DNA of 64,000 nt. Source: Buxus sempervirens. Its lineage: Eukaryota; Streptophyta; Magnoliopsida; Buxales; Buxaceae. This document shows positions 10,961 through 36,074 of this stretch, piece after piece (the first letter of the stretch is position 1; the number at the start of each line of letters is the position of its first letter). The stretch is taken from assembly GCA_947561395.2 (NCBI GenBank), contig OX387184.1, forward strand, positions 38,678,766 to 38,742,765, given 5' to 3'. Both the position numbers and the translations under genes were made by a program. Under the pieces are notes generated by a model, which did not search any database, had not been told where the DNA came from, and saw only the letters and a program-made list of their open reading frames with translations.

Positions 10961-10971
10961 AAAAAAATTTG

Positions 10972-10981
10972 TTATAAATAG
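10972..10981 (+). promoter_or_regulatory. TATA box of the family 3 LTR
   Basis: TTATAAATAG directly follows the palindrome array and precedes a CT-rich leader, as expected for an LTR promoter. Confidence 0.65.
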
Positions 10982-13174: not shown

Positions 13175-13394
13175 CTTGGTCGATGAGACCACTTCTTCAT
13201 TGAAATCAAAATCCTGAAACCCTACAAGTGTTCTAAACCTAAGAACACCCAAGCCTTTGAGCTTAGATCACACCCGTATGTATCTTTTTTTTAAGATCAT
13301 CCGGTCAGCCTTTTGGGGCATCGAAGCCGCTAATAATTAAACCAGAGATTGGTGGAGGATCGTCCTAGTGTAAGGCGCCGAAGTCTATGGTAAT
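13175..13394. other. Left end of a tandem-repeat region, target of element A
   Basis: From about 13300 this matches the ~115-bp repeats at 36075-36720 (GCCGAAG, ATTAAACC, GAGATTGGTGGAGGATCGTC). The sequence is interrupted after GGTAAT by element A and resumes at 36075 with the same GTAAT. Confidence 0.8.
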
Positions 13395-13498
13395 TGTAGA
13401 CACCCCAAATTGCACTACAGAATGAAAAAGTAATAAAAACATGTAATTAGAACTTAAAACAGGTCAAAAATGCAAAAAAATTTACAAAGCAGGCTTTG

Positions 13499-13600
13499 CC
13501 CGTATTTCATTCACGGGCCGGTCGCGCCCGAGATCGCTCTATGGTCAGGCGCGCCCGTATTGAAAATACGGTCACCATTGGACCGTAATTCATTTACGGT
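13499..13600 (+). promoter_or_regulatory. Palindrome array 1 in the element A 5' LTR
   Basis: Four palindromes of the CCGTA-N7-TACGG type: CCGTATTTCATTCACGGG (13499), a decayed one (13527), CCCGTATTGAAAATACGG (13554) and ACCGTAATTCATTTACGGT (13582). Their centres are 27-28 bp apart. The array lies about 200 bp upstream of the TATA box. The 3' LTR carries the same array at 34372-34473. Confidence 0.8.
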
Positions 13601-13801
13601 CACTAAAGACTCGTGCGAGTTTTACTCTTCTCTTGATTTCCGAGCTTTATCTTTAGTCCAATATATCTTTAAATGAGCGAATTACGTCTTTTATTCGCTG
13701 AAGCCACCTTGGTTGGCTATGGATGGGCATTATCTCTGTCTTTCACTCTATCTTAAGGATCAGGATATATCCTTCTGGACCAGCCTTGCCCCTGGGTTTG
13801 C

Positions 13802-13811
13802 CTATAAATAG
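13802..13811 (+). promoter_or_regulatory. TATA box of the element A 5' LTR
   Basis: CTATAAATAG followed by a leader rich in AAG/CCAAG; repeated at 34675 in the 3' LTR. Confidence 0.7.
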
Positions 13812-15202
13812 AGGGCCTTTCCTCAAGCAAAAGGCCACGAAATTTTGAAGTCCAAGAAGCTCCAAGAGAAGGAGAGGAACCCCTGCTGCTCTGCCTGCTC
13901 AATACAGGTAAGTTCCTTTTCCCTTTTATTTTCTGTCTTCAATTCTAGAAGTAATAGGATCATCTCTATTGCTGTAGAATAAGGCCATCTTTTGTATCTA
14001 GTATTCCTAAACCTGCCTCTAAGTACCTCAAGAGTCTCTCTAGCCGTAAAACGTGAAGAGAGAGCTAGGGGAAAAGAGAAAAGGTGGATCCCTAGAATAG
14101 AACCCCATATCTGTTTTTCTCTTTTTTATAGAATAAAGCCTCTGATTGTGTTTGTATAACCAAACCTATCTCCAAGTACCTCAAGAATCCTCTCTAGCCG
14201 TAAAACGTGAAGAGAGAGCTAGGGGAAAAGAGAACAGGTGGATCCGTAGGGTAGACCCCCATGTGCTCAAATCTGTGAGATGTGGCTGCTTTGAATATCT
14301 TGATCATGTTTTAATGGTTTTTATGATGAATCTGAATGAATCTATGAATCCATGATGTTTATAGCATGAGATCCCCACTTTTTTTATAAAATTTGGATTT
14401 TTGCCACTTTTGCACCTACAGCACTGTTTTCGTGATTTTTGTGAGTTTATGCTAAGATCTTGGATTTATCATGATCAATATGGTAGATCTGGATCCAGAA
14501 GCCTGAAAGTAAATTCTAGGGTTTCATGATGTTGTTTTTGAATTGTTTTTCATGTTTGAGAGAAGACCCTACGGTCTAAATTCTCCCCTTTTGGTGTTTT
14601 TCATCAACGTGGGTATTTTTGTTTTTATTTTCAGATTTAATGTGAAATTTGAGCTTTATCTATGTCCTGGACTATTCAAGTTCAGTTTTGAAATATTTTA
14701 TAAAAATCATATTTTTCTAGATTTCTAGAATTTGACTTGAAGCCAGATTTTTGGATTTTTCACTTTAAATTGATTTTATTTGATTTCATCTCAATTTTGT
14801 TTTGATCATGAAACCCTAGGAATGGTATGATCATATTTGAAAGTTCTGGATCAATCAGACTATTCATATGAAAAAACCATATATTTTGTCTTTTTTGTGA
14901 TTTTTCCTTATTTTTATAGCAAGCTTTTCTTTTTTGTAAAACATGAACAATACCTGGCAACCACCTTGTGTGGATGAATAGGGGTGCCTAACACCTTCCC
15001 CTGTTCATAACCTAATCCCCTTACCCATCTCTGGTTGTTTTTTTAGGAGGGTTATTTTTACCCTAAAATTGCCTTTTGTGCTTATTTAATATTTTGGTGT
15101 CCATTCACACCTAAATTGAATGGTGGCGACTCTTTGTTTAATTTAATCCCATGTGATGATTGAGGAAGTCAATGGAAATTGATTTTTTCCCATGTCTCAC
15201 AA

Positions 15203-15221
15203 TTGGTGACTTTGCTGCGGA
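15203..15221 (+). other. Primer-binding site of element A
   Basis: TTGGTGACTTTGCTGCGGA begins one base after the LTR end. Tat/Ogre elements have a TGG(T/C)GACTC-type site in this position that pairs with a tRNA 3' end. I did not identify the tRNA. Confidence 0.7.
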
Positions 15222-16712
15222 CTGGAGGATTTGAGCCTTTTTGGTGTTTTAGTTCATGTTTTTGATTTTTTTATTTGCTTGCTATTTTGTGTTCTTAAGC
15301 ATGTTGAGTATGTTTTAAATCTGATTTATTGCTTAAGAATTCATGGGGGTAGAAACATGCTTAATTCTGATTTATAGGATTGTTTCTACAAACATGCGTA
15401 GGGGAGGGTCGTTTTGCTGAACCATGTTTATTTCTTGCTATATTTTTATGATAGCATGTTTTAATTTTCAGCATGATCTCCATGATGATTTTGGGTGTAT
15501 AACATGATCATATGTTTGCATGATTAGATGATTTTTTTTATGAGCATGTTTTAGGTGCTATAGGATTGCTTTATTTACTTGTTTATTTTAAATATGCTTT
15601 CCTATTATGCCTTGGTTTGTTTATGCATGGCTGCGAAAAGAGTGGTAAGGGTTTGGGACGTTGTGAATGCACCCTATTTTTACAATCCACTGTGCACATT
15701 TTATTTTTTTTACACAACCTACCCTTAACCTATAGGAAGTTGAACCCGAATGTGTGTAGCTTGGCGCAACGAGGTCGATACTTCGGAAAGCGAAAGTGAA
15801 AACATTCACCTTAGAACTTTGAGCTAATGATGTGATGATAACGTGGATCTGGGATTCTGGTCATCACTAGGCTTGAGTGCTAAGTTGCCATTAAGCCAAA
15901 ACCCAAAACCCCTACGCTTGAAGGTGGAGTTACACGTTTTTGGCTAAAGTACACAATTACGTGGGGATATGGGTTTGTATGATTGTGGGAAGGCCGTGTG
16001 CATGGCTTACAAACCAGGGCATAATGCGGATGCCATATTGAAGGTAAACAAGGTAACAAGGTAATCCTATTGTTTTGCATTATTTTCATGTCATGGGGTG
16101 TCATGGTGCCCATTGGTTCGGGATAAAATTTGTCCCAAAATATGCATATTTTCTAAAATTGGTGCAGCCCATAGGAAGAGTTTCTAACTTTGTTTAGAAT
16201 CAATCGTACCCAATGTTCATACAAGAGGCAACAAAAGGGTACCAAATTCTTGAGTATGGTGTCAATTTGGAGGGTACATGTGCCTTCCTAAACATGTATT
16301 TTAGCAAAAAGGTCAAAGTCCACTTTGGGACAGTTTAGAAGCCCTGCACTGGGTGAACCGTATGTTTGGATGAGCAATCAAAATGATCAAACCATGTAAA
16401 AACTGAGAAAACATAAAAGAGTTCCGTAAAACCGTATTTGATACACGGGCTGGGCTCGTCCGTATTAGTTATACGGGCGGGGTTTGCCTGTGAATTTCAT
16501 ACAGTCACGGCTCGCTCGTAATTTAAATACGGGCAGGGCTGGACCGTACTGTATATACGGTTTTCGCGGAAAATTCAATTTTAATCAGCTTTTTCCCACT
16601 AAATCTTATTCCTTTAACCTTTAAATGATGATAAAGGGAAACAGGGTTGAATAAAATGCTTCAAAAAAATAATAATAAATAAATAAATAAATAAAAAAGC
16701 GTTAAGAGAAAA
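15222..16712 (+). other. Element A leader, upstream part
   Basis: Non-coding sequence between the primer-binding site and the tandem repeats. Only short frames are present (for example 15566-15799), with no recognisable domain. It contains palindrome array 2 near its 3' end and an AAATAAATAAAT run at 16674-16695. Confidence 0.6.
16432..16560 (+). promoter_or_regulatory. Palindrome array 2 in the element A leader
   Basis: Five palindromes: CCGTATTTGATACACGG (16432), CCGTATTAGTTATACGG (16460), a decayed one (16487), TCGTAATTTAAATACGGG (16515) and ACCGTACTGTATATACGG (16543). Centres are 27.5-28.5 bp apart. The half-sites are those of array 1; the 7-bp spacers differ. It lies 2.8 kb upstream of gag (1.2 kb without the solo LTR). 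Confidence 0.8.
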
Positions 16713-17194
16713 TCCTTTGGGCCTCTGAAAGCCTTTGAATTTCAGACTTTTTCTCAAAAAATCCTTTGGGCCTCTAAAAGCCTTTGAATTTAAGACTTTT
16801 TCTCAAAAACTCCTTGGGCCTCTGAAAGCCTTTGAATTTCAGACTTTTTCTCAAAAACTCCTTGGGCCTCTGAAAGCCTTTGAATTTCAGACTTTTTCTC
16901 AAAAAACCCCAAGCCTCTGAAAGCCTTTGAATTTCAGACCTTTTCTCAAAATGTCCTTGGGCCAAGCCTTTGAATTTCAGATCTTTTGGGCCTCTGAAAG
17001 CCTTTGAATTTCAGACCTTTTTCTTTTGGGCCTCTGAAAGCCTTTGAATTTCAGACCTTTTTCTTTTGGGGCTCTGAAAGCCTTTGAATTTCAGATCTTT
17101 TTCTTTTGGGCCTCTGAAAGCCTTTGAATTTCAGATCTTTTGGGCCTCTGAAAGCTTTTGAATTTCAGACCTTTTTCTTTTGGGCCTCTGAAAG
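16713..17194 (+). repeat. Leader tandem repeats, left part
   Basis: About a dozen copies of a 33-42 bp unit with core GCCTTTGAATTTCAGAC, separated by TTTTTCTCAAAAA or TTTTTCTTTTGGGCCTC. Interrupted at GAAAG by a solo LTR and continuing at 18800. Open frames across it on both strands are by-products of the repeat. Confidence 0.9.
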
Positions 17195-18799
17195 TGATGT
17201 ACTTTTTCGCAAGTGCACGAATTCGTAACAAGTAATAAAGTGATGAAATAGAGTGTCGAACCCACAGGGAATGGTAGCTACTAAATACTGAAATTACTAT
17301 CCTAAATTCTATTTGAATAATTAAAGATTGAGATGAGTATTTAACTAGCAATTAAAATTATCACCTAAGAAAATATAAGATTAAGATTTAATAAGAGATT
17401 TAAAATACTAAGGCATTTGATTTCATCATAAACAAATCTGAATTAACTCTTGAATACACATGCTAATGAATTTTATAATCCAATTTGAAAGCGAAAATCC
17501 CTATCCTATCCAATGGTCTCTCTCGAGCACCAACGAACTTACCTTCCCACAATAACTCACTATATCTCTATGTGAATTTAAAAGCAACAAGGCACATTAA
17601 GATCTGTAGATTTTCATGTCAAAAACACAAAGCTACATAAACCATGCCAATATCTCTATCAACATGTAGAGTATGGTATCTTATCATAGGAACTAAAATT
17701 GTATATCTCCTCTCGGTCTCAATACAATTATCAAATACAATTGAATGATGATCAAATACTCAATTGGGTTAAGCACAATAATAAAATACTCAAATAATGA
17801 ATCACAAATCCATTAGCAATAATATTCAGAAATAAAACATCATGTTTAGACTACATCAAAGCCTTAGAAAAAGAAATTAGTTCATGATTGAACTAGGAAT
17901 AACCATTAAAAACAGAGTATATTTAAAAAGAGAAGAAAAGAGAAGAAGTAAACTAATGGAGTCCAAGCTTTGATCTCCCACGTTCCTAGTTCTTCCTTAC
18001 GTTCCCAGCATCAATCCTCCTCATTCACGTTCAAGCTCCTCCTTTTTATATCTCCAAACTTGCCCAGAAATCCCTTGAAGAGAAAATAGAAACTTGCCTT
18101 CCAAGACTCCTAAGGAAGAGAGAACTTCCTTTTCTTGTATATCCATGATTTTCAAGTCCAAAAACGACCTAATCTTCTTTATTAGAAACCCCTAAAAATC
18201 CTCCTAAAGACTAGAAGAAGATCCCCAAGAAAAGGGAAACAAATCCGCAAAGTTCGGAATTTTATAACAGGATTTAATACTTGATCGTTCGAACGGTCAT
18301 CGAACGCCGGTCGAACGTTCAGGTCAAAAAGTTGTTTCCTCTTCTCTTGTTCGAACGTTCATCGAACGGTCAGCGAACGCTGCTCACAATTTCTCTATTT
18401 TTCACCAACGTTCGAACGACAGGCGAACGTTCAGCGCACGCTGCTCTCGGGTTTCTCTGTGGATCACTAACGTTCGAAAGGCAGGCGAACGGCCAGCGAA
18501 CGCTACTCTTGGGTTTCTCTGCAGAACACCAACGTTCGAACGGCAGGCGAACAGCCAGCGAACGTTGCTCATATCTTCTACAATTTGACTCCGATTGTTA
18601 CGCCGTTTGAACCGTGACTTCTATAATCACCAAGAGTATCTCTACATCAACAAATTAGGCATAATTTAGACAATGAAAATAAAATGTAGAGATGAAAGAT
18701 TTTGACAATTTCTAAGTAAAATTGGGAATTAAATATGAAATAAAACCAGATAAGTCATGAATTAAATGTGCTATAATGTGGTATTTTCATGACTTATCA
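17195..18799 (-). mobile_element. Family 2 solo LTR (1605 bp) inside element A leader
   Basis: The reverse complement starts TGATAAGTCATG at 18799 and ends TACATCA at 17195. Perfect GAAAG target duplication at 17190-17194 and 18800-18804. It matches the LTR at 988-2596 throughout, including the CGTTCGAACG repeat array (18286-18560). It entered after element A and then lost its internal region. Confidence 0.95.
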
Positions 18800-19089
18800 G
18801 AAAGCCTTTGAATTTCAGATCTTTGGGCCTCTGAAAGCCTTTGAATTTCAGACTTTTTCTCAAAAACTCTATGGGCCTCTGAAAGCCTTTGAATTTCAGA
18901 CTTTTATCAAAAATCCTCGGGCCTCCGAAAGCCTTTGAATTTCAGACCTTTTCCAAAAATGTCCCTGGGCCTCTGAAAGCCTTTGAATTTCAGACCTTTT
19001 CCAAAAATATCCCTGGGCCTCATAAAGCCTTTGAATTTCAGACCTTTTTCAAAACCCCCCTAAGCCTCTGAAAGCCTTTGAATTTCAGA
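18800..19089 (+). repeat. Leader tandem repeats, right part
   Basis: Six to seven more units with the same GCCTTTGAATTTCAGAC core, ending just before a poly-A run (about 19146) and the gag start region. Confidence 0.9.
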
Positions 19090-19326
19090 TCATTTTCTCT
19101 TTATTGTGGGACCTGTTGGAAGCCCTAGAATATTCCAACAATTCTAAAAAAAAAAAAAAAGAAGCAAATAAAGAAAAAAATCCAAACTCGTGTTCACCCA
19201 GCTTGCACATAGGCATTCATAGGTATGTGAATGAGATTAAATTGGCACTGATATTTTTTTTCTTTATTTCCAGGTACTAATACACTTGCAATCATAGCTC
19301 CTGTAACCAGATCAAGAGCTCGCGCC

Positions 19327-20940: not shown

Positions 20941-22704
20941 ATAAACAAGGAAAAAGAAATAAATGTAATTTCAAAGGGGAATGATAGTGCTGCAAAGAAC
21001 ATTAGCTCATCTCTGGACCGGGTCTCGTCCCTCATGGCCCAAATGAACATTGCAAAACCACCATTGGTCATCAATTGCAGTCCATCCACCTTTACTTCAC
21101 CCATTCAGTCAAAACCACCATTGGTCATAAACTGTGACCCTCTTAATGCATCAGTCACTTCTGTGACCCCTCAACCAAAACGACTTCCACCATTGGTTGT
21201 TGATATCCCTCTCACTCAAATTTCATCATCCAAGTCTAAACTTCCTCCCTTGGTGATAAATGTCCCCAAGCCTTCCTACTCTGAATCGGCTGTACCATGG
21301 AACTACAGTGAAGCTTTTACCACTACATGCCCTGCAGCTGAAAGCAAGGAAGAAGTGAACCTCATGATGAGGTCAGTAAAATGTGTAGGGGTGGAAGAAA
21401 AACAAAAGGAAATAGAGAAGGAGAAGGAAGAAGAAAAAAATAAAGGAAAGGCCAAGATAGGGGATGATGCCCCTCAGGGAACTAACAGTGAGGCTGCTGA
21501 CCTCATGAAGGTAATAAAAAAGAGTGAGTTCAATGTTGTCGAACAGTTGAACAAAGTCCCTGCCCAGATCTCAATACTGGGCCTATTGTTAAATTCTGAA
21601 AAACATAGGGACTCCTTGTTAAGGATGCTCCAGGGGGCCCATGTGCCTAAAAACATTGAACCAGACCAACTAGGCCGGATGGTTGGGCAAATATTATCTC
21701 ACAATGTCATAACCTTTTCAGAGACTGAGATCAGCCCAGCAGGGTACCACCATGTTGACCCATTGCACATAGCTGTACTCAGTAAGGGTTGCATGATAGC
21801 CCGGGTCTTGATTGATAATGGGTCGGCTCTCAATGTCTGCCCATTAATAACCTTTGTTAAGCTCGGTCTGGAGCAAAACAAAATCAAACAGAATGGAAGA
21901 ATCATAAGAGCATTTGACAGCTCTAAAACACACTCCCTAGGGGAGGTTGAACTGCCGGTCACAATTGGACCGTATATTTTCAACATCACATTTGAAGTGA
22001 TGGATATACCTGCAGCCTTCAACCTACTCCTAGGAAGGCCGTGGATTCATACGGCTAGGGCTATACCATCTACCCTCCACCAAAGAGTCAAATATATCAG
22101 AGGGCAAAAGGTGATTACTGTCCTAGCCGAAAATTTGGTTCCTCCCATGTGGTCCCCTGATGTACCCTACATAAACATGGAAATGACTGCTGACAAAATG
22201 GCATTTCACTCTTTCCAGTTTGAAGCTGTTAATTTCATACCTGGGGGGTATCAGGAAAAAGAAGGAAAATTGACCTGTGTTGAGAAAATGGTCAAGAATG
22301 TGCTAGAAAAATATAACTTTCACCCTGGAAAAGGTCTGGGGGTTAACCTGCAAGGAAGGATAGAACCGATAAAGGTTAAGAAGATAGTCCACAGAGCAGG
22401 ATTGGGGTCAAAGCCAAGGAAGTGGAGAAGTCAGAAGGAAATGGAAGATATGAAATTCCCTCACATCAGGGAAACTTTTCCTAAGCTTTCTCACATGATT
22501 CAGCTATCTCCTCCTGAGGATCAGTCCAAACCCCCATACTATAACATCAATCCATTCCAAAAACCCAAATCCTCAACCGTGCAACCATATGTTCCACCTC
22601 CACCTCCACCAGCATTGGGTGGGCCTGGGCCACATAAAAAACAGAAGCATGACTTTTCTGAGGACGTGGGAGCCTTTTTTGCCATGACAGAAGGCAACAA
22701 ATAA
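20941..22704 (+). CDS. pro: Protease region with G-patch, element A
   Basis: Continues the gag frame after the TGA; the first internal ATG is at 21034. The first third is a low-complexity spacer with four repeats of PPLVIN(C/V). VLIDNGSALNVCP (about 21808) is the retropepsin active site with Asn where DTG/DSG has Thr/Ser, as seen in other Tat/Ogre elements. LLLGRPWIH follows. Near 22270-22400 the stretch YNFHPGKGLGVNLQG resembles a G-patch, a glycine-rich RNA-binding module. Cleavage of the Gag-Pol precursor is the expected role. It ends in TAA (22702-22704), although the frame stays open for a further 80 codons. Confidence 0.85.
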   Translation: MNKEKEINVISKGNDSAAKNISSSLDRVSSLMAQMNIAKPPLVINCSPSTFTSPIQSKPPLVINCDPLNASVTSVTPQPKRLPPLVVDIPLTQISSSKSKLPPLVINVPKPSYSESAVPWNYSEAFTTTCPAAESKEEVNLMMRSVKCVGVEEKQKEIEKEKEEEKNKGKAKIGDDAPQGTNSEAADLMKVIKKSEFNVVEQLNKVPAQISILGLLLNSEKHRDSLLRMLQGAHVPKNIEPDQLGRMVGQILSHNVITFSETEISPAGYHHVDPLHIAVLSKGCMIARVLIDNGSALNVCPLITFVKLGLEQNKIKQNGRIIRAFDSSKTHSLGEVELPVTIGPYIFNITFEVMDIPAAFNLLLGRPWIHTARAIPSTLHQRVKYIRGQKVITVLAENLVPPMWSPDVPYINMEMTADKMAFHSFQFEAVNFIPGGYQEKEGKLTCVEKMVKNVLEKYNFHPGKGLGVNLQGRIEPIKVKKIVHRAGLGSKPRKWRSQKEMEDMKFPHIRETFPKLSHMIQLSPPEDQSKPPYYNINPFQKPKSSTVQPYVPPPPPPALGGPGPHKKQKHDFSEDVGAFFAMTEGNK

Positions 22705-23356: not shown

Positions 23357-26300
23357 ATGATATGGTTCTTGGCTAATTATGAAGATGTATTTGCATGGTC
23401 GTATCGGGATATGCCAGGGTTAGACACGGACATGGTTGTGCATAGGCTACCCATTCTACCAGATGCCAAGCCAGTTAAGCAGAAACTGAGAAGGTTAAAA
23501 CCTGAATGGACATTGAAGGTCAAAGATGAAGTGGTTAAGCAATTTCAAGCTGGGTTCTTAGCGGTCTCCACTTACCCTGAATGGCTTGCAAATATAGTGC
23601 CAGTACCAAAGAAAGATGGAAAGGTCAGAATGTGTGTAGACTACAGAGACTTGAATAAGGCAAGTCCAAAGGATGATTTTCCACTTCCACAAATAGACAT
23701 CTTGGTAGACAACACTGCTGTACATAGCCTGTTCTCATTCATGGACGGGTTTTCTGGGTACAATTAGATTAAGGTGGCTAATGAAGATCAAGAGAAGACA
23801 GCCTTCATCACACCTTGGGGTACCTTCCATTACACTGTCATGCCATTTGGATTTAAGAACGCTGGGGCGACCTACCAGAGGGCCATGACAGCCTTATTCC
23901 ATGATATGATCCATAAGGAGATGGAGGTTTATGTGGATGATATGATAGCCAAATCATGTGAAAAAGAGGACCATTTGGTCAACCTGAAGAAGGTGTTTGA
24001 CCGGCTCAGGAAATATAGTCTAAGACTTAACCCTGCGAAATGCGTCTTTGGGGCTACATCAGGAAAATTATTGGGCTTTATAGTAAGCAGGAAGGGAATT
24101 GAGATTGACCCAGCTAAAGCCAGAGCAATCATTGAAATGCCATCACCTAGAACGGAGAAGGAAGTTCGTGGTTTTCTTGGAAGGATTCAGTACATAAGCT
24201 GGTTCATAGCACAGCTCACCGCTATCTGTGAACCAATTTTCAAGCTTCTAAGAAAGAATAACCCGACAGTCTGGAATGACGATTGCCAAGAAGCCTTCGA
24301 CACAATAAAGGAGTATTTATTGAACCCACCTGTGCTAGTACCACCGACTCCAGGAAAACCATTGATCTTATACTTGTCAGTTTTGGAGACGTCAATGGGG
24401 TGTGTCTTGGGACAGCATGACAATACAGGCAGAAAGGAAAGGGCGATTTACTACTTAAGCAAGAAATTTACAGAATATGAAGCAAAGTACTCTCCTTTAG
24501 AAAAGACTTGTTGTGCTTTAGTGTGGGCAACTCAAAGACTGAGGCATTATTTCCTTAGTCATTCCACCTTATTGATATCCCGAATGGACCCTTTGAAGTA
24601 TCTATTTGAGAAACCAGCTTTAACTAGCAGAATAGCAAAGTGGCAGTTGTTACTCTCTGAATTTGATCTCACCTATATCACACAGAAAGCCATTAAGGGT
24701 CAAGCCATTTCTGATCACTTAGCTGCACACCCTTTACCAGAATACCAACCTTTGAAGACTAATTTCCCTGATGAGGCAATCCTGTTTACTGAAGAAGAAG
24801 AAGGGGAAAGCTCATGGCAAATGTTTTTTGATGGGGCCGCCAATATGAATGGAAATGGAATAGGGGCTGTTTTGATCAAGCCAGATGGGGCACACATCCC
24901 AATCGCAGTGAAGTTAAGGTTCCAATGCACAAACAATATAGCAGAGTATGAAGCATGTATAATTGGGTTGCAAGCTGCTTTAGACCATGAAGTAGAGGAA
25001 CTTGACGTATATGGGGATTCGAGTCTTATCATCTTCCAAACAACTGGTGAATGGAAGACCAAGGATCACAAATTGATCCCCTATCACCAGTATTTGGAAG
25101 AAATAAGCACCAAATTTACTCGAATTTCCTTCAATTATATGCCAAGGGCCAAAAATCAGTTTGCGGATGCTCTAGCAACATTGGCTTCAATGGTCAGTAT
25201 GCCAGAAGGTGTTGATATTAGACCATTGGAAATTGAAGTCAGAGATGAACCAGCTTATTGTCTTGTTCTAGAAGAAACCCCAGAAGAAGAAGTACCATGG
25301 TTTCATGACATTAAGAACTTCTTAAATAATCGGAGTTTGCCAGAAAATGTCACTTCTACAGAGAAAAGAACAATACAGAGGTTGGCAGGACAGTTCTTAC
25401 TAAGTGGTGGTCAGTTGTACAAAAGATCACACAATGATATACTACTTAGATGTGTTGCAAAGACCGAGTCAGAAAGGTTAGTTGAAACGGTACATGGAGG
25501 AGTGTGTGGACCCCATATGAACGGGCATATGCTTGCCAAGAAGATTCTGCGATTGGGATATTACTGGTCAACAATGGAGCATGATTGCTATATACATGTC
25601 AAAAGGTGTCATTTATGCCAAGTGTATGCGGATGACAAGAATGCACCCCCAAGTGAATTACACAACATGACATCTCCATGGCCCTTCTCCATGTGGGGTA
25701 TAGACGTCATTGGAATGATCTCTCCAAAGGCATCAAATGGACACAGGTTTATACTTGTAGCAATTGATTACTTCACCAAGTGGGTAGAGGCAGCTTCATA
25801 TGCAAACATTACAAGTAGCCACGGTTTGAAATTCTTGAAGCACAATATCATTTGTCGCTACGGTTTGCCAAGTGTCATAGTATCAGACAATGCTTCAAAC
25901 CTTAAGAACAAGGACATGAGAAAGATGTGTGAACAGTTTCAGATCACCCACCACAAGTCAGCTCCGTATAGACCAAAGATGAATGGGGCAGTGGAAGCAG
26001 CAAATAAGAATATAAAGAAGATCATTCAAAAGATGGTAGTGAGTTTTAAAGAATGGCATGAAATGCTGCCACTTGCTCTACATGTTTACAGAACTTCAAT
26101 CCGGACTTCTACAGGGGCAACCCCGTATTCCTTAGTATATGGAATGGAAGCAATTTTACCAGTGGAAGTGGAAATACCTTCACTAAGAGTGCTAATGGAA
26201 GCTGAATTAGAAGAAGCTGAATGGATACAATCAAGACATGATCAACTCAATTTAATAGAGGAAAAGCGATTAAAAGCGCTTTGTCATAGCCAATTGTATC

Positions 26301-26545
26301 AGAAGAGAATGGCTAGGGCTTACAATAAGAAGGTGAAGCCCAGAACTTTCCAAGAAGGAAATTTAGTATTGAAGAAAATTTTACCCTTTTTAGAAGATCC
26401 TCGTGGAAAGTTCAAACCAAATTGGGAAGGACCTTATGTGGTCAAGAAGATCCTATCAGGGGGTGCTCTCATCTTAGCAGAAATGGATGGGAAAGATTTT
26501 CCTGAGCCAATTAACTCTGATGAAGTAAAGAGATATTTTCCTTGA
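23357..26545 (+). pseudogene. pol: RT, two RNase H domains and integrase of element A (one TAG)
   Basis: RT has VPKKDGKVRMCVDYRDLN, FSFMDGFSGYN and YVDDMIAKS (23929). One in-frame TAG at 23765-23767 replaces the Gln found in element B (GYNQI). The first RNase H (24360-24720) reads LYLSVLETSMGCVLG, where the usual first catalytic Asp is Ser. A second RNase H (24820-25190) has FFDGAANMNGNGIG and YGDSSLI with Asp and Glu in place; a second, archaeal-type RNase H is a Tat hallmark. Integrase has the H-H-C-C finger (about 25494-25620) and the D, D, E residues in WGIDVIG, VSDNAS and GAVEAANK. The C-terminus (NWEGPYVV) has no chromodomain. Apart from the TAG the 1060 codons are open. Confidence 0.92.
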
Positions 26546-27453
26546 ATGAATATTACTAGGAAATGATCCGAGGCCATTTTTCTATATCTCTCAAAAATTT
26601 CATCTCTAGTCAAGCCAATTTGAGCCTGTTCGTCTTCTTTGTTAAACCTAAACTGGACTTACAGTCTTATACTGGGGCAAGGCCCATAGGGGCGAAGCCA
26701 ATAGGGGCAGAAAGAAAAAAGAAAAAAATAGGGACAAATGAAAGCCAAATACAAAAGAAGGGGAATGGGATTGAATTCACCATGACTGTAAGTCCGGTTG
26801 ACCCATTTTCACACTTAGAAAATTTTGAGCCTTTAATACCTTTTCTTTCATAAACCGAGCCTAGCCTTTGTTTCGTCCTATTATTAAGCCCTCGGTGATT
26901 TTAGTATATTCATTCAACTTTCAGAGTAAGATTGGTGATGACGGAATACAGAAGCCGACCCTAGTGAAAACCGTAATTGGCACTAGGGGCAAAAAGAAAA
27001 AAAATAGAAAAAAAAAGAAAAAAAAATCAAAGGTTGAGTTGATCATGTGGTCTAAATTTAATCAGCATGAGCACTGGAAACTGAGCAGATTAGCAGGGTC
27101 AATCATGAAGGTAAAGCCATTAGGGGATGATTCTAAAGGTCACGGGGTAGACAGATTTGGTCTCTCCCTATTGCTTGGACTACCCTTTTTATTATCCAAC
27201 CTGATTTTAATTCCTTTAATTATATGTGATTAAGTGTTTTGGATCAGCTTTCAAAAAAAAAAAAAAACTATACTTTGGCCAGTGATGAGAAATCAAATAC
27301 TTTTCCATGAAACTTCTGTTTTTACAAGCATCTGAGAATTCTGAGGCCAAAAATATAAAACCTATTTTGAATTAAATCTATTATCTTTCCACTAATGGAG
27401 TTTGCTTTTGGTATAAAAGTATGAAAAAAAAGAAAAAAAATAGATAAAAGAAT
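26546..27453 (+). other. Spacer between pol and the antisense genes
   Basis: About 900 bp with A-rich runs (26705-26730, 26990-27030, 27246, 27425-27441) and two short frames without recognisable domains. Sense and antisense transcripts would converge here, so polyadenylation signals for the PMD genes may lie in it; I cannot point to a specific one. Confidence 0.5.
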
Positions 27454-29244
27454 CTAATCCCTACTCCCCAACTGCTCCTCAAGTTCCTTAATCCTAGCTG
27501 CCTGAGTTGCAATGATTCCAGAAGCTCCCTCTGCATCAGGATCACTCAAAAAGGAGATGACCTCATCTGAAAAGAATGCTTGATCTTCAACGCCCTAAGG
27601 TCGGCCAAGGAATCCTGATATTTCTTCCGCATCACTCGGACTTCAAAGCGACAAGCTTGCCTTTGTTCTTCAAGTTTCTTCTCCATGGCAATACAGCCAG
27701 ACTTCTGCTCTTCAAGTTTCCTCTCCAGATCAATGACTTTTATCCTAAGCTCTTGAGCCTCCCGTACCCATATTTGTTGAAGCCGCTTATGGGTTGCCCT
27801 TTCAGACTCCAGAATGTCCTCATTGGTAGGAGGAAGAACTGCAGGAGGATCCTCTGGTACTGGGGCATGACTCTGCACCTGCTCTTTGGTCCAGAAATGA
27901 TAGTCCTTCACATGGGACTCAGAAAAGACAGGACCCCGCAGAAAGCGAACATAGGACCACTCATTCATTAATTGAGCATTTAGCCCCATGGTGGCTAATG
28001 TAAGTGGCCCTACAAGGCTCTCATAGCCAGTTGGGATCATAATTCCCTGGGTCGCTCCAAACTGCCGAAGAACCCTTAAAGGAAGATAGAGAACAGCAGA
28101 TTTCAAGCCTGCCAGGACCAGAAAGTTCCTATCTCTGAAGCTGATCACTGTCTCTGGATTGGTCTGATAAGTGCCAGGCCATCTCACTTGATCATCCTGG
28201 AGAGTACCCAAGAAAGTGAACCATCCCTGCTTGCCACCTTGGATATTAGGACAACCCCTGTGGCTCATCAGAACAGGAACTTTCAACCTTGGAAAGAAGC
28301 GGCGAGTTATCTCTTCAACTTGGCTCAGGTGGTCAAGCAACCAAAGCTGCAGAAAAGGGGAGAATTTCAATTTATTTTAGAAAGAAAAAAAAGAAAGAGA
28401 AAAAAGGAAAAAAAAAAGGAAAAAAAAAGAGAAGAAAAAAGAAAAAAAAAGAAGAAGGAAAAGAAAAAGAGAAGAAGAAGAAGAAAAGAAAAAAAAGAAA
28501 AAAAAAAGAGAAAAGAAAAAAATATATATATGTATATTTTTTTACCTGTAGGATAGGGGCGCAGGCAAGGAAGCGTTTCTTCTTTCTGAAATAACAGTCA
28601 GTAAGGGCCTGGTATATCTCTGCTAAGATCATAGGGGCCAACCTCTCACGTTCCCTAACCTGGCAAATAACTGAGATAAGAGCCAAGTCAACCTGGTCAT
28701 CACCCCGTGGAAAGAGCAACTAGTTGACCACTACCAAAGTCAAAGCATTAAACCTGGCATCCTTGTGCCCACTCCTTAGAAGTTTTTCAGTCAAAAAGGT
28801 CTTGGACAAGGTCAATAGGGTATCAGAACTCCCTAAGTCTTTCTTCCCTATACCCAGGAATGTAGAGGCCTCCTTTTTGTAACTAGGCTTTAGGGGCGGG
28901 TTCACAACTTTTTCAGAAAATGTTAAGCCAAGGATGGTTTCAATTTCTTCTATGGTAGGAGTCATCTCTTTGTCATCAAAACGGAAGAGATTCAGTTCAG
29001 GAACCCAGTGTCCAATCAAAGCTTCAATAATTTCCCACTTGAAGGGAATTTTAGGGATGTGTAGGATATGCCCTAAGTGGATGGAATCCCAACGAATCTC
29101 CTCATCAAGGGTCATGGAGTTAACCCATCTGTCATAGAAAGAATCTACCACGTTATACTTGGTGAGAATAGGAGGTTTGGATCTAACATGTTGTTTTACA
29201 GGAGGAGATTCAACGACAGAAGAGAACGGTGCAGGGGAAGCCAT
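27454..29244 (-). pseudogene. Antisense PMD gene 1 of element A, two exons
   Basis: ATG at 29244. Exon 1 (29244-28546) has MTPTIEEIETILGLTF, LSKTFLTEKL and LLFPRGDDQVDLAL, typical of the plant mobile domain, and ends CAPILQ. A 199-bp intron (28545-28347) has GT and AG borders. Exon 2 starts LWLLDHL and ends in a long coiled coil (residues about 400-480). Splicing keeps phase 0. One in-frame TAG (28722-28720) lies in VVN*LLFP. A one-base frameshift near 27586 separates the last 40 codons, so the frame stops at 27546 instead of about 27454. PMD proteins act in nuclear silencing and expression control in plants; the role of the element-borne form is unknown. It has its own TATA box and palindrome array upstream. 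Confidence 0.85.
28347..28545 (-). other. Intron of antisense PMD gene 1
   Basis: Donor CAG|GTAAAA at 28546/28545 and acceptor TTTTCTGCAG|C at 28347/28346 on the minus strand. Between them is an almost pure pyrimidine tract about 140 bp long, which appears as a GAAAAA-rich block on the + strand. Translation across the joined exons matches the uninterrupted PMD relic at 9150-9180 residue for residue. Confidence 0.85.
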
Positions 29245-29335
29245 AGAAGTGCCAAAGAAGCCAAGGAAAGCGAGAAAAGACGTGCTCAGGGAGTTTCCAA
29301 ACTATTAAAAGTGTCACAATGACGTTCCCCATGAG

Positions 29336-29345
29336 TTTATATAGA
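29336..29345 (-). promoter_or_regulatory. TATA box of antisense PMD gene 1
   Basis: TCTATATAAA on the minus strand, about 92 bp upstream of the ATG at 29244, which allows a leader of some 60 nt. It lies between the ATG and palindrome array 3. Confidence 0.75.
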
Positions 29346-29367
29346 AAAAATCGTAAGGCAGTAAAAT

Positions 29368-29495
29368 CCGTAATTATAATACGGGCATAGCGCGCCCGTA
29401 GAGGAAATACGGACACCCTTGACCGTGGAAACTTCACGGGCAGAGTGCACCCGTAGTAACTTTACGGGCACGGCTTGCTCGTAGTCTAAGTATGG
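29368..29495 (-). promoter_or_regulatory. Palindrome array 3, upstream of PMD gene 1
   Basis: Five palindromes on the + strand: CCGTAATTATAATACGG (29368), CCCGTAGAGGAAATACGG (29395), ACCGTGGAAACTTCACGG (29422), CCCGTAGTAACTTTACGGG (29450) and TCGTAGTCTAAGTATGG (29479). Centres are 27-28 bp apart. The array begins 22 bp upstream of the TATA box. Half-sites match arrays 1, 2 and 4 while the 7-bp spacers are all different, so the palindromic form rather than the exact sequence appears to be kept. Confidence 0.85.
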
Positions 29496-29640
29496 TTCCT
29501 TCGAAAAAATGCAAAAAAAAAAAAAAGGGAAATTTCAATTTCTTGTTTCCCTAAGCTTCACCTGTCCCTGCTTTAACATTCATCATGCCATAAAAGCTGA
29601 AAACAAAGAAGAAAAGAGCAGAAATGAATAAAAATCAAGA

Positions 29641-29670
29641 TTCTTTTATATATATATATATATGAATATG
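29641..29670. repeat. Short TA microsatellite between the PMD genes
   Basis: An alternating TATATA run in the 290-bp gap between the distal (upstream) end of array 3 and the stop of PMD gene 2. Nothing else recognised in the gap. Confidence 0.7.
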
Positions 29671-29788
29671 TACATCACTTTGGTCAAAATACATATACAT
29701 CAAAAATCCTAATCTACTGTGCCTACGCAGGTCCACCCCTACGGCTACGGCCACGGCCACGTCCTCTGCCTTGACCACGGCCTGAAGA

Positions 29789-32620
29789 TCACCGAGGCTC
29801 AAAAACATATCGCACTATGTTACGGGCTGTACTACGGGTCATCCTGCTCAAAACAGACTGAATATCATGCCACATATATAAAGGCACAAGGCCAGCAGTG
29901 GGATGATCAGGAGGAACGTACCCCGAAGTATCTACATATCCCGTAGACTCGATATCAGAATCCGTATAAACAGACATAGAATCATCAGAAGTAGGATCAG
30001 CAGCAGCAGGCGTCTCCTCTGTAGGCTCCATGGCAGGACCAGCAGGAACAGATGTCCCAGGTACATCAGCATCAGGACCAAGCTCCACAGGATCAACTAT
30101 GGCCTCCTCCGTCATCCCAGCCTCCATGGTAGGCTCTACCACAGCGGCATCCCTAGCCGACTCCATATCCACATCCGCAGATGCCACAGGAACAGTCTCA
30201 GCTACTGGGGCAGACTCTGGCACATCCTCAGCAGCAGGTGCAATATCAGCCTCGATCTCAGGCTCTGCTGCAGGTGCCTCTACCGGACTGGGAGAAGTCA
30301 CGAACTCCACCCGTGCCACAGAAAATACCTCATCCCGAAGATGCATGGGCACAGGAGAAGCAGGTGAAGAAGGGCTGGCTGTGTCCTCCTGAAAATAAGA
30401 GAAGAAATTTCAGTCAGAACCAGATAAACAGTTATAATAGCAGGAATGGAAATAAAAGAAGAAAATAACCTGAGTATGAGATGGACCCGCCTGGTCCTAT
30501 GCATCAGATGGACCCGCCTGGCCCTGTGCTCTGGCTAGCTGTCCCCGGAGGTCTGAGATCGTGATATAGAGGGCATCCCTCTCAGTAATCGTACATCACG
30601 CTGGTGCTCTAGATCAGTGTACCGAGACCAGATCTCTGCCAACTGAGCCTCCTGAAATAGAAAAGAAAGAAGTCAGAAAAATGCTAAAGTTCAGATGAAA
30701 TGGAAATATAAGATCACAAAGAGAGAAGGCATACCGTCGTATCATAAGCCCGGATCACTACCCCTCCTATCTCCGTGACTCCACCACGGACAGGCATGGG
30801 TGGCATGAGGCACCCAACAGAAGCTCGCCTGAACCAGGCATCATAGTCACCCTCCTCTAATAAAGTCTCTGCCTCAGTCCAATCTAGGAACTGGGCAGGA
30901 TCAACAGGCATAGGAGGGAAGGAGGGGGTAGTATCTGGAGGAATGGCAGGAATCCACGGCTCTCCTACATGCTGAAAGAAGAAGCGCTCGCCGCAGTACC
31001 AAATGCTGCCCATCTGACCAATAAAGAACTGGTATCTCTGTCGTCTCTGGTCAGGGACGAAAGCATCATCTCTGGCTGCATGCAGGGCCAGCACCTCATG
31101 AATGTCCTCCATCCTGGGGACAAATAGCTGCAAAAAAGAGGGGGATATTAGATATGTGATTCAGGAAGAAAAGGAAAGAAGAAATAAGAGGAATTAATGT
31201 AGATTACCTCAGACCGGTATAGCCTGTCCAAGTGGGCTCGGGCGGACCTAGGACGACTCTTTTCAGAGTCGTGCTCTACATGACACCATCTGCGTGCCAT
31301 GGGATACGTCTCCTCAGACATCGTAGAGGTAGGGCGGAAATAGGGTATATAAACCCTAGCAAAAAACTGCAGAAAGAAGAAAAGAGTCAGAGGAATAGAA
31401 AAGGAGAGATAGAAAAAAAAAGGAGAGAAAGAGAAAAAGAAGGGAAATAAGATTCACCTGCAAAAAGGGCCAGAAGAACCTGCACCCAACTCCAGCTCCT
31501 CTGGAAGTAGAGAGGCCGCTCACTGATCGGCGAAGGCCGGCCAAAATAGTACCAAAAATGAGCGGGCCCCATGCATACCTCCTCGCTCGATGCAGATCCC
31601 CCAGTAAGCTCAGAAAATAAGGACTAACCGAAGTCGTGTCCTCTGGGAAGAAGCAAGATCCCATCATGTACAGAAAAAGGAATCGAAAGGCATACGGGAA
31701 AACATGATCACCGGAGGCAAGCTGGCCAAACTGCCTCACCCTGAAAGTCTCCCTCAACCATGTCAGAGACAATCTCACTCTCCCTCTATCCCATGCCTCA
31801 GGAGGCAGCACAATATATCCAAGATAAGCAGTGACCTCATCAGTCTCTGGCATCACCATCTCAGGAATGACATCACCAATAATCCTAATCCCGGTGATAA
31901 GGGTGAAGTCAGAAGGCTGGATCCCAATCTCAATATCTGGGAAATGGAAGCTCAAAGTCTCTGGGAAGAATCTCTCGAGCAGTGCCGCAATAAGAGCACG
32001 ATCCAGGCAAACATCTGGAATGGTGATAAATAGGCCAAAGCCATATAAGCCTAACTCCCGACGGTAGGCCGAACTGCAAGCTCCAATAAACTTAATAAAG
32101 CTGGCCCAGCTCCCTCTGTAATGGGACATCGGATACTCTAGAGGGATATCTGCCCTAATACACGCTGAGGGATGAGTCCTCAAGCCATGCAAAAGATCAG
32201 TATCCCTGATCTGGGCAGCAATCGCCTCCGGGACCTCAACCCTGGTCCTGGCCTCATCTCTGCCACGGCCTCCTCTGCGGCCTCCTCTACGGCCCTCATC
32301 ATGGCCTGCATCTCTGCCTCCACCTCGGCGCCTGCTACGGCTCCTGTCTCTGCCCGAAGCCTCAACAACCAGCTAAAGAAACGATGGGAAGGAAGAAGGA
32401 ATCAGGGTGATGTATTTTGTGAAAGAATATTGAATTCAGAAGAGTTACAATATACCTCTGGGGTCGCCTCACGCGAATCCCCAAAAGGGAGATCTGGGAT
32501 ATCAGAATCTGAATCCCTCTCGGCTCTCGAAGACGAGGCCATATCAGCAGAATCTCGCCTAACCCTCGAAGAGGAAGGCTCATCTGCAGGATCCCTAGAA
32601 GCTGATTGAAGGCGGGCCAT
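29789..32620 (-). pseudogene. Antisense PMD gene 2 of element A, six exons
   Basis: ATG at 32620. Proposed exons: 32620-32456, 32372-31458, 31366-31208, 31127-30735, 30651-30470 and 30388-29789. Every junction has GT/AG borders and keeps phase 0, giving about 800 residues. The N-terminus is Ser/Arg/Asp-rich, then Arg/Gly repeats. The plant mobile domain follows (FPETLSFHFPDIEIG, LSLTWLRETFRVRQFG, RRYAWGPLIFG, YPMARRW). Exon 5 looks coiled-coil and has a one-base frameshift near 30590 and a TAG near 30499. Exon 6 is an acidic, Ala/Pro-rich tail (about 200 residues). It is a more distant PMD than gene 1, so the two are not a recent duplication. Function unknown; a nuclear DNA- or RNA-linked role is inference. 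Confidence 0.8.
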
Positions 32621-33638
32621 CTACGGTTCAAATCAGGGAGATGTTAATTATTCTTGTTAGAATTTTATTGCTCAATCTTTAGTTTAATCAAGATTAATTA
32701 ATTTGCAGGAAAAGGAAAAGTGGAAAATAGAAAAAATACTTTAAAAGTTTCCGACCAAATCAGGAGTCAATTACAGAAGATTATCTTTTTAATCTCAAGA
32801 AATTCTTTAAGAAGCTCCATTATCTTTTAGTGGCTTATTTTATCAGTTAATTATTCATATATTTTTGTTGGGTTTCAGGACAGTCAAGATATGTTCAAAC
32901 TAACCTGAGGTTGTGAACAGGAGGTTAAGTCTAATAAGGAAAATGCCTAACAAATCTAGGCTTGTTCAGGAGAAAATTCAGAAATGTGGATAGGAGATTC
33001 TAACATCCCACAGATCAAGAATCAGTTCAAACCCGTGAGTGTTCAACTCAAGCTAAAGTTTCAAAGCAAAATCAGTCATTAGTTTGAGTCTACTACAAAG
33101 AGAACACCAAGAGGAAAGCATGAACAGATGCAAACAACATGCTAAGTAAGGGTGTGCCAATGACAGTGGTAATTGCCCCATGGTGATCAATGTCAAAAGG
33201 GAAATGAAAGCATACAAGATTGAAGCAGAAATCCAGTCTCAATCAGAAAAATTGCAAATATCAGTTCAGTCAGCAGAAAGCAAACTCAGAAATTCAGAAA
33301 TTTGCTCATTCAAAAGCCAAATCTGTTAGCCCAAGAGCAGAAAATCATTTGGTTGAATATAAAAGTGGAAGATTTACTCATGAAAATCATACAAGCATTC
33401 AGGGCATCCATACAACAATTTTCGGATGTAACATTGGTATAAAAATCAGATATTGAACCAATGAAATAAATTGGAATCAAGGACAGATCATGGAATAGCT
33501 CATGGACGAATTGCTTAAAGACATACCTGTTTATCTGAATTTCGAAAAGAAAATGTGAGCTTGGTCTCACCAGAGCAAGGAGTTTGCTCACTCACAGAAG
33601 AAAGGAACAATCGTCCAAGGCAGAAAGTAAGAACTCAC
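32621..33638 (-). other. Probable leader intron of antisense PMD gene 2
   Basis: A strong donor CCG|GTGAGTT lies at 33639/33638 on the minus strand, and an acceptor ...CCGTAG sits directly before the ATG at 32620. No coding frame of note lies between. A first non-coding exon would then start around 33640-33800, just downstream of palindrome array 4. A long leader intron is common in plant genes; transcript evidence is lacking. Confidence 0.5.
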
Positions 33639-33815
33639 CGGAGGAGAACAGTGGTCGCCGGAAGGAGAGAGTCGCCGGAGAAGAACAGTGTTCGTCGGGG
33701 ATTGAAAGAAGAAGAAGGAAGACTGCAGAGAAGACTACGGTCGCAAGAAGTTAGGGCAAAGTGCGGACAGAAATGAAGAAATGTTCGCGGCCGCAGTTAA
33801 GAAGGAGAGTAAAAT

Positions 33816-33916
33816 CCGTAAACTCAGTATGGGCTTCAGACGACCGTGAAAGTAATACGGTCCCGTTCGCCCGTGATCGAACTACGGGTAGCATTGGTCC
33901 GTGATACAAATACGGG
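33816..33916 (-). promoter_or_regulatory. Palindrome array 4, upstream of PMD gene 2
   Basis: Four palindromes: CCGTAAACTCAGTATGGG (33816), GACCGTGAAAGTAATACGGTC (33842, shortened at the ends in the others), CCCGTGATCGAACTACGGG (33870) and TCCGTGATACAAATACGGG (33898). Centres are 27-28 bp apart. No clear TATA box follows, but the proposed leader exon does. Confidence 0.8.
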
Positions 33917-34251
33917 CGAAGCCAAAAAGTTGCATATTTTATTATTTTCTCCACACTTATCAAAAGATTAGTGTTTATATTAGTTGTAAGTTGCAAGGAT
34001 TGCCACCATACTCACTTTTGTCTAAAAATTTTGTCTCAAATCTCACTTCATAGCCACGAGAGCTCAGTGAGAGGAGAGAGGAGGATTTGGCCCTTAAGCT
34101 GAGGGACTTCTAGCAAATCTTCCACAATCAATTCTGTTTTCCAAAAATCATCCATTTAATCCTTGCAAAGTGCAATTGATTAGACAAAAATCTCAGAAAG
34201 TGCAATTGGTGGGTCTTTTTGCTCTCTGCTTGTAATTGGTTCCAATTACCA

Positions 34252-34267
34252 GCAAAGAGGGGGCAAC
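34252..34267 (+). other. Polypurine tract of element A
   Basis: AGCAAAGAGGGGGCAAC directly abuts the 3' LTR start, the expected primer site for plus-strand synthesis. Confidence 0.8.
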
Positions 34268-36074
34268 TGTAGACACCCCAAATTGCACTACAGAATGAAA
34301 AAGTAATAAAAACATGTAATTAGAACTTAAAACAGGTTAAAAATGCAAAAAAATTGACAAAGCAGGCTTTGCTCGTATTTCATTCACGGGCCGGTTGCGC
34401 CCGAGATCGCTCTACGGTCAGGCGCGCCCGTATTGAAAATACGGTCACCATTGGACCGTAATTCATTTACGGTCACTAAAGACTCATGCGAGTTTTATTC
34501 TTCTCTCGATTTCCGAGCTTTATCTTTAGTCCAATATATCTTTAAATGAGCGAATTACGTCTTTTATTCGCTGAAGCCACCTTGGTTGGCTATGGATGGG
34601 CATTATCTCTGTCTTTCACTCTATCTTAAGGATAAGGATATATCCTTCTGGACCAGCCTTGCCCCTGGGTTTGCCTATAAATAGAGGGCCTTTCCTTAAG
34701 CAAAAGACCACGAAATTTTGAAGTCCAAGAAGCTCCAAGAGAAGGAGAGGAACCCCTGCTGCTCTGCCTACTCAATACAGGTAAGTTCCTTTTCCCTTTT
34801 ATTTTCTGTCTTCAATTCTAGAAGTAATAGGATCATCTCTATTGCTGTAGAATAAGGCCATCTTTTGTATCTAGTATTCCTAAACCTGCCTCTAAGTACC
34901 TCAAGAGTCTCTCTAGCCGTAAAACGTGAAGAGAGAGCTAGGGGAAAAGAGAACAGGTGGATCCCTAGAATAGAACCCCATATCTGTTTTTCTCTTTTTT
35001 ATAGAATAAAGCCTCTGATTGTGTTTGTATAACCAAACCTATCTCCAAGTACCTCAAGAATCCTCTCTAGCCGTAAAACGTGAAGAGAGAGCTAGGGGAA
35101 AAGAGAACAGGTGGATCCGTAGGGTAGACCCCCATGTGCTCAAATCTGTGAGATGTGGCTGCTTTGAATATCCTGATCATGTTTTAATGGTTTTTATGAT
35201 GAATCTGAATGAATCTATGAATCCATGATGTTTATAGCATGAGATCCCCACTTTTTTATAAAATTTGGATTTTTGCACTTTTGCACCTACAGCACTGTTT
35301 TCGTGATTTTTGTGAGTTTAGGCTAAGATCTTGGATTTATCATGATCAATATGGTAGATCTGGATCCAAAAGCCTGAAAGTAAATTCTAGGGTTTCATGA
35401 TGTTGTTTTAGAATCGTTTTTCATGTTTGAGAGAAGACCCTACGGTCTAAATTCTCCCCTTTTGGTGTTTTTCATCAACGTGGGTATTTTTGGTTTTTAT
35501 TTTCAGATTTAATGTGAAATTTGAGCTTTATCTATGTCCTGGACTGTTCAAGTTCAGTTTTGAAATATTTTATAAAAATCATATTTTTCTAGATTTCTAG
35601 AATTTGACTTGAAGCCAGATTTTTGGATTTTTTACTTTAAATTGATTTTATTTGATTTCATCTCAATTTTGTTTTGATCATGAAACCCTAGGAATGGTAT
35701 GATCATATTTGAAAGTTCTGGATCAATCAGACTATTCATATGAAAAAACCATATATTTTGTCTTTTTTGTGATTTTTCCTGATTTTTATAGCAAGCTTTT
35801 CTTTTTTGTAAAACATGAACAATACCTGGCAACCACCTTGTGTGGATGAATAGGGGTACCTAACACCTTCCCCTGTTCATAACCTAATCCCCTTACCCAT
35901 CTCTGGTTGTTTTTTTTAGGAGGGTTATTTTTACCCTAAAATTGCCTTTTGTGCTTATTTAATATTTTGGTGTCCATTCACACCTAAATTGAATGGTGGA
36001 GACTCTTTGTTTTATTCAATCCCATGTGATGATTGAGGAAGTCAATGGAAATTGATTTTTTCCCATGTCTCACA
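34268..36074 (+). repeat. Element A 3' LTR
   Basis: 1807 bp, same ends as the 5' LTR. About 30 differences from it by eye, mostly transitions, with a few compensating single-base indels. It carries the palindrome array (34372-34473) and TATA box (34675). Followed by the GTAAT duplication. Confidence 0.95.

Follow-up and report, generated by a model that had tools for sequence, protein, structure and literature searches.

The locus described here raises the question of what a set of short, regularly spaced palindromes, repeated at separate non-coding sites of a plant retrotransposon, might be doing there. The window, a 64-kb stretch of the Buxus sempervirens genome, contains one full-length element, element A, a Tat-lineage Ty3/gypsy retrotransposon on the plus strand (13395–36074) recognized by its pair of long terminal repeats (LTRs), its target duplication and its Pfam domains. 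Element A carries 18 palindromes of the form CCGTA-N7-TACGG, identified by direct reading and a motif scan, at four sites with four, five, five and four units. Their sequence suggests that the arrays are a platform for a family of dimeric DNA-binding factors, with fixed geometry, rows of sites at promoters and a half-site preference that has shifted between families. We give this reading a probability of roughly 0.6.

All 18 units lie at the four non-coding positions where the first-pass annotation had placed them. Array 1 is located in the U3 region of the 5′ LTR (13498–13601; units at 13500, 13528, 13555 and 13583), with a copy in the 3′ LTR (34371–34474; units at 34373, 34401, 34428 and 34456). 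Array 2 lies in the transcribed leader (16430–16562) and has a 28-bp pitch, with units at 16432, 16460, 16488, 16516 and 16544. Arrays 3 (29366–29497; units at 29368, 29396, 29423, 29451 and 29479) and 4 (33814–33917; units at 33816, 33844, 33871 and 33899) are found upstream of two antisense genes that we call PMD gene 1 and PMD gene 2. The step from unit to unit is 28 bp in 11 of 14 cases and 27 bp in the other three, in agreement with the 27–28 bp spacing noted earlier, and the spacer within the palindrome is 7 bp long in 18/18 units.

A motif-specific scan of the window and of 100 dinucleotide shuffles of it indicates that this arrangement is not expected by chance. Exact (10/10) matches to CCGTA-N7-TACGG occur ten times in the window and never in the shuffles. 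At a threshold of at least 8/10, the window contains 33 matches, 14 neighbouring pairs 27–29 bp apart and a chain of five, while the shuffles contain a mean of 9.05 matches, no pair at 27–29 bp and no chain longer than one. An equal palindrome density in shuffled sequence, which the first-pass annotation had named as a refutation of its proposal, is thus not observed. The scan detected no array site at 9/10 or better in gag-pol of element A. In a generic palindrome-density test, the threshold of which is barely reached by 5-bp arms, the U3 array stands out (p 0.0033), and the leader (p 0.14), PMD gene 1 (p 0.08) and PMD gene 2 (score 0) arrays do not; for these three, the evidence is therefore that of the motif-specific test.

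The half-sites of the four arrays are conserved and the spacers are not, as had been proposed: between arrays, half-sites are identical at a rate of 0.84 and spacers at 0.34, compared with 0.32 expected from composition (spacer identity within arrays is 0.40). Over the 18 units, arm positions hold 1.1 to 2.0 bits of information and spacer positions 0.05 to 1.15 bits, the most informative of the latter being position 7, with T in 13/18 units. The symmetry reaches two bases outward (G at −2 in 14/18, C at +2 in 15/18), giving an extended half-site G-M-CCGTA and a full unit GMCCGTA-N7-TACGGKC. Element A thus combines individually conserved half-sites, a fixed spacer length and free spacer letters, the pattern of a dimer site. 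Each palindrome would represent one such site, with a CCG-N11-CGG core that takes the extended form in element A, and four to five dimers would be lined up at a nearly constant pitch of 28 bp, probably cooperatively. At 10.5 bp per turn, 28 bp corresponds to 2.67 turns, which rules out an integer helical phase with all sites on the same face of the DNA. The earlier proposal of a fixed DNA phase accordingly holds in part: adjacent sites face different sides, while the near-constant pitch allows for a constant non-integer phase.

The arrays are associated with promoters on both strands. The sense TATA box (CTATAAATA, 13802–13810, plus strand) follows the U3 array at a distance of about 200 bp; on the minus strand, array 3 is separated by 23 bp from a downstream TATA box (CTATATAAA, 29336–29344) that precedes PMD gene 1 (27546–29301, minus strand). 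The ATG opening the first stretch of this gene, read by eye, is at 29243, about 93 bp past the antisense TATA. PMD gene 1 consists of two open stretches, 28720–29301 (hmmscan: DUF7745 3.3e-8, PMD 4.8e-5) and 27546–28376 (both families weak, 7.2e-4 and 9.3e-4), and the PMD score is below the Pfam curated cut-off in both. PMD gene 2 (29789–33640, minus strand) comprises the stretches 31356–32372, which contains PMD at 5.4e-17, and 30714–31160 and 29789–30409, in which hmmscan found no family. No TATA box was found adjoining array 4. A donor-like GT near 33638, about 180 bp from array 4, and an acceptor-like AG at 32373–32374, both located by eye, would delimit a putative first intron; since they precede the PMD-containing stretch, a transcript start just below 33816 is plausible. 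The idea that an array marks the start of every transcription unit therefore stands for U3 and PMD gene 1 and is plausible for PMD gene 2, but not for the leader, which lies within a unit. With the same platform at the sense U3, the leader and both antisense PMD promoters, a single factor would switch element A as a unit.

Searches with the PMD gene 2 stretch scored 8000 candidate proteins, none at E ≤ 0.001, and returned no match among PDB chains at E ≤ 1. A further PMD-like fragment is present at 9075–9815 on the plus strand, opposite to the PMD genes of element A (PMD 2.4e-7, below the curated cut-off), with 31% identity to PMD gene 1 across 9153–9815.

Element B, an older Tat element in the same window, comes with nested solo LTRs, named Lleft, Lright, LTR4 and LTR1, and the arrays are not confined to element A as first thought. 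Lright, a solo LTR nested in element B (41942–45022, minus strand, target duplication GTCGC), carries related palindromes spaced by 28 bp at 44482–44640. Its U3 array (44479–44642) consists of palindromes at 44482, 44510 and 44538, at a 28-bp pitch, and a fourth at 44624. The sites are CCGYA-N7-TRCGG-like, the one at 44624 being an exact element A site, and on the Lright sense strand the array lies just upstream of a TATA box (CTATAAAAG, 44458–44466, minus strand). A downstream palindrome of Lright, AACCGC..GCGGTT at 42512–42532, also has the CCG-N11-CGG form. No similarity between the LTRs of Lright and element A was detected by blastn.

LTR1 is a solo LTR that precedes element A (10134–13174, plus strand), with one mismatch in its target duplication (CTCGG/CTTGG); those of Lleft, Lright and LTR4 are perfect 5-bp duplications. 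The U3 array of LTR1 (10712–10961; cores at 10717, 10756, 10862, 10901 and 10940) ends 10 bp before a TATA box at 10972–10980, and a downstream array (12023–12129) has cores at 12029, 12068 and 12107 at a 39-bp pitch. Steps within rows are exactly 39 bp in 5/6 cases, the remaining one (10756–10862) being 106 bp. The difference between the 28-bp and the 39-bp pitch is 11 bp, about one helical turn. The half-site letters of the LTR1 palindromes (TGTATCCGACAT..ATGCCGGATACA and kin) are unlike those of element A, and they also differ from those of Lright even though LTR1 aligns with parts of the Lright LTR. The word TGCCGGAT occurs five times in the window against 1.3 expected, with four occurrences inside the two LTR1 arrays; the Lright word AACCGCAT occurs twice, both times within Lright, against 1.8 expected, which is no evidence of enrichment. 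LTR4 (59796–63375, plus strand, target duplication CCACC) has other inverted repeats at 60825–60919, before a TATA box at 60934, and at 61886–62129.

In Lright, LTR1 and LTR4, the palindromes approach the TATA box to within 10–19 bp. The windows from −200 to the TATA box of these three LTRs reach the floor p value of 0.0033 (300 shuffles) in the density test and rank among the highest-scoring 0.6% of 200-bp windows. Three of five LTRs are thus extreme, and the corresponding windows of Lleft, the TATA box of which is doubtful, and of element A, the U3 array of which sits further upstream, score zero. Two positive-control windows were chosen in advance within a CACTA-type DNA transposon inserted in pol of element B (51124–58992; CACTAC...GTAGTG ends, AGA duplication) and gave a weak result (p 1.0 and 0.05); other windows of this transposon (58601 and 58701) are among the 12 highest of 638. 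The CACTA copy has a palindrome-rich stretch near 58.2–58.8 kb.

A common geometry connects the arrays of different families. The element A unit can be read as CCG-N11-CGG, and this core geometry is common to element A, Lright and LTR1. Among exact CCG-Nk-CGG pairs counted for k from 3 to 25 in 13 regions, the distribution peaks at k = 11 (24/159), followed by k = 13 with 13 pairs; those at k = 11 are distributed over element A (14), Lright (4), LTR1 (3), LTR4 (2) and element B (1). We also applied a filter outside the element A arrays, selecting sites with outward flanks symmetric at 4/5 positions and at most one core mismatch. The share of k = 11 among the selected sites is 8/17 in LTR1, 2/2 in Lright, 1/9 in LTR4 and 0/43 elsewhere. 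With two mismatches in its core, the LTR1 palindrome at 10756 is not one of the eight. Relatives that keep the geometry while changing the half-site letters would fit a family of binders with diversifying specificity.

Several observations weigh against a dimer platform of this kind. None of the array sites of element A passes the symmetric-flank filter, their arms being short in the outward direction, and the geometric link is therefore carried by the core only. One of the eight LTR1 sites, at 12301, is probably another palindrome, and the three-site rows of LTR1 may be tandem duplicates of each other, for which reason the N11 coincidence is cautiously counted as one event with a chance of about 1 in 23 (k 3–25). 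LTR4 has strong palindromes without N11 geometry, palindrome scans found no array in Lleft, and a comparison of all k-mers between U3 and the downstream part of the LTR gave no consistent excess within the same LTR. Array 2, in the leader, lies some 2.6 kb past the sense TATA box, where no known unit starts. The linkers of the four element A arrays are most alike when all are taken in the plus orientation (mean identity 0.454, compared with 0.424 for the next of eight configurations), a hint that part of their likeness may reflect common descent independent of the direction of transcription. The proposal of selected dimer sites retains the support of conserved half-sites, free spacers, a near-constant pitch, the absence of covariation described below, and the placement at U3 and PMD gene 1; the leader array does not fit the idea that every array stands at the start of a unit.

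The strongest competing explanation invokes a host transcription factor, a conserved plant protein that would bind CCG-N11-CGG-like palindromes as enhancer sites and be exploited by the element. The CCGYA core and the 28-bp pitch, common to element A and the blastn-unalignable Lright, fit a host factor as well and must also be counted against our preferred reading, and a position just upstream of the TATA box is typical of ordinary activator sites. However, both antisense PMD genes bear arrays, and half-sites turn over quickly, as LTR1 aligns in part with Lright and yet differs in its letters. We know of no plant factor with a CCG-N11-CGG-like site, and regard this explanation as possible but rather unlikely. 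Hairpins in the genomic RNA, serving packaging, dimerization, export or protection, are considerably less probable. A full-length sense transcript would contain the leader, PMD and 3′ U3 arrays, the leader array and the downstream array of LTR1 lie within transcribed parts, and nine folded stretches, with two arrays folded on both strands, have z-scores of −2.3 to −8.4; the folding energy falls with any palindrome array, however, and the scores are trivial in this respect. G·T mismatches outnumber A·C mismatches in six arm pairs (13 vs 6), but the difference is not significant in a sign test and C-to-T decay would produce the same bias. The half-site letters are conserved beyond what mere pairing demands, and the arrays adjoin TATA boxes. 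In an alignment of the 18 units, 88.9% of cells are paired, compared with 87.4% after shuffling (136/500 shuffles as high), and compensatory double changes occur in three pairs (208/500 shuffles as high). Pairing covariation does not exceed that of shuffles, and the folding scores follow from the palindromes themselves; we therefore consider the hairpin explanation improbable, and the arrays look like two-fold symmetric DNA sites.

Neutral tandem duplication, in which a functionless 28-bp minisatellite was copied around element A, could account for linkers that share their orientation and some letters across the arrays. Tandem repeats are frequent in Tat elements according to PMC11963269, and the element A leader itself has 48-bp tandem repeats. 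Yet spacer identity is no higher than composition predicts, whereas the half-sites, at a distance of 5 bp, are 84% identical, a difference for which copying and drift are insufficient, and the spacer is 7 bp long throughout. This conservation of half-sites but not of spacers leads us to reject a minisatellite, which we consider highly improbable.

Returning to the dimer platform, we infer protein binding, a dimeric state and activation or de-silencing at the arrays from the sequence. More tentatively, the binder may be encoded by the element, and the PMD proteins are the best candidates, as element A encodes them behind array-bearing promoters; this would close a feedback loop. A fuller version, which we consider doubtful as a whole, is an element-encoded regulon in which the antisense PMD proteins would bind the CCG-N11-CGG arrays, maintain promoter activity or prevent silencing, and evolve in step with the half-sites. 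The targets would be the sense promoter, the leader and the promoters of the PMD genes themselves, and the two PMD proteins of one element might pair as a heterodimer, in line with the interaction of MAIN with MAIL1. Half-site letters would change between families, with the dimer geometry and a rough helical phase (28 or 39 bp) remaining fixed. On this view, PMD proteins would direct counter-silencing to particular elements through DNA recognition, and the host silencing proteins MAIN and MAIL1 would descend or have diverged from them. With a well-defined candidate target, repeated and under geometric constraint, inside a PMD-bearing element, the question of PMD function becomes testable. In other plant genomes, the CCG-N11-CGG geometry with changing half-sites may serve as a guide to such arrays and could help to distinguish control encoded by transposable elements from that of the host.

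The structure of element A supports its assignment to the Tat lineage. Its LTRs (13395–15201 and 34268–36074) differ by 26 substitutions in 1806 compared positions, one of which is the base preceding the LTR. Three of the differences fall inside the U3 array (13500, 13523 and 13542) and all are C/T, as methylation-linked decay would give. The LTR termini are of the TG...CA type (TGTAGACACC...ATGTCTCACA), a 5-bp target duplication, GTAAT, is present on both flanks (13390–13394 and 36075–36079), and TTGGTGACTTTGCTGCGG follows the 5′ LTR. The domains detected with hmmscan against Pfam are gag, G-patch, reverse transcriptase (RT), RNase H, a second RNase H (RVT_3), integrase and PMD. In the open reading frame (ORF) 23768–26545, RT_RNaseH (residues 195–299) is followed by RVT_3 (354–472) and the integrase core (639–736); a second RNase H (aRH) between RNase H and integrase is a lineage criterion taken from PMC6317226. 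The same source reports PMD in 57% of surveyed Ogre elements, and element A has a PMD-type extra ORF, a feature of the Ogre clade; this clade is further characterized by a tRNA-Arg primer site and an intron separating gag-pro from RT. The Pfam scan did not report TRP28 (PF04195), the domain of the Retand antisense ORF, in the five antisense stretches of element A. The G-patch domain (1.6e-6) lies at 20941–22704 on the plus strand, in a frame between gag and RT. A 1.6-kb repeat is present in inverted, 88.7% identical copies at 17195–18799 and 988–2596, the former splitting the run of 48-bp tandem repeats in the leader.

LTR1, LTR4, Lright and Lleft share a different palindrome in their downstream parts, GGGCC-(ttccaacgg-like)-GGCCC, which is reminiscent of TCP site II motifs (12272–12296, 62482–62504, 63007–63029, 42325–42349 and 40085–40105). 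Viral contigs contained no match to two array patterns or to the pol protein of element A. Pairs of CCGTA-N7-TACGG palindromes 27–29 bp apart were found at 12 loci that are bacterial by record title, five of them titled Streptomyces; these are probably unrelated bacterial operators or chance matches.

Among known systems, CACTA transposons have subterminal repeated palindromes that are thought to bind an element protein; these lie near transposon ends, whereas the arrays of element A are at the promoters of an LTR element. In HTLV-1, 21-bp repeats in U3 are read by the host factor CREB together with Tax. HTLV-1 thus resembles element A in combining a short U3 repeat array with an antisense regulatory gene, although it is an unrelated retrovirus; antisense HTLV genes are mentioned in PMC11963269. 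Like element A, Retand, Grande and Ogre elements carry antisense genes (PMC11963269, PMC7264820, PMC6317226). The antisense proteins of Retand and Grande have been suggested to be regulatory, and in maize, gene23 of Grande is driven by an antisense promoter of its own and its product is nuclear (PMC11963269, PMC7264820). In contrast to the antisense stretches of element A, Retand antisense genes encode TRP28, and no palindrome array common to sense and antisense promoters is described in the accessible literature on these elements. More generally, the literature searched, from which subscription journals were mostly absent, yielded no description of a palindrome array common to promoters of both orientations, and within that range the novelty claimed for Tat elements is upheld.

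PMD proteins are found widely among the retrotransposons of angiosperms as well as in host silencing, and the role of the domain is described as not established (PMC5418596, PMC7156037); PMD proteins made by transposable elements have been proposed to act in counter-silencing (PMC8616336), a hypothesis in keeping with PMD proteins as candidate binders. The Arabidopsis PMD proteins MAIN and MAIL1 are genetically linked to genes sharing a promoter motif, 'DOWN', found at genes that need these proteins (PMC7156037). Unlike the PMD genes of element A they are host genes, and direct recognition of the motif is left undecided in the same paper.

The VANC proteins of VANDAL elements offer a closer parallel. 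In both systems, short motifs are repeated in non-coding parts of a transposable element that encodes an accessory protein (PMC5735166, PMC10398659), and motifs differ between related families; here, the arrays occupy non-coding U3, leader and antisense promoter regions, with other letters in LTR1. The motif read by VANC21, YAGTATTAY, is nine bases long, and the accessible text of PMC5735166 does not use the term palindrome, whereas the sites of element A are palindromic, keep a fixed geometry and stand at core promoters. VANDALs are Mutator-like DNA transposons, while element A has LTRs, gag, RT, RNase H and integrase. Binding and demethylation have been demonstrated for VANC (PMC5735166), while the arrays of element A are known from their sequence. 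By analogy, the VANC targets are the nearest precedent in logic for the arrays described here.

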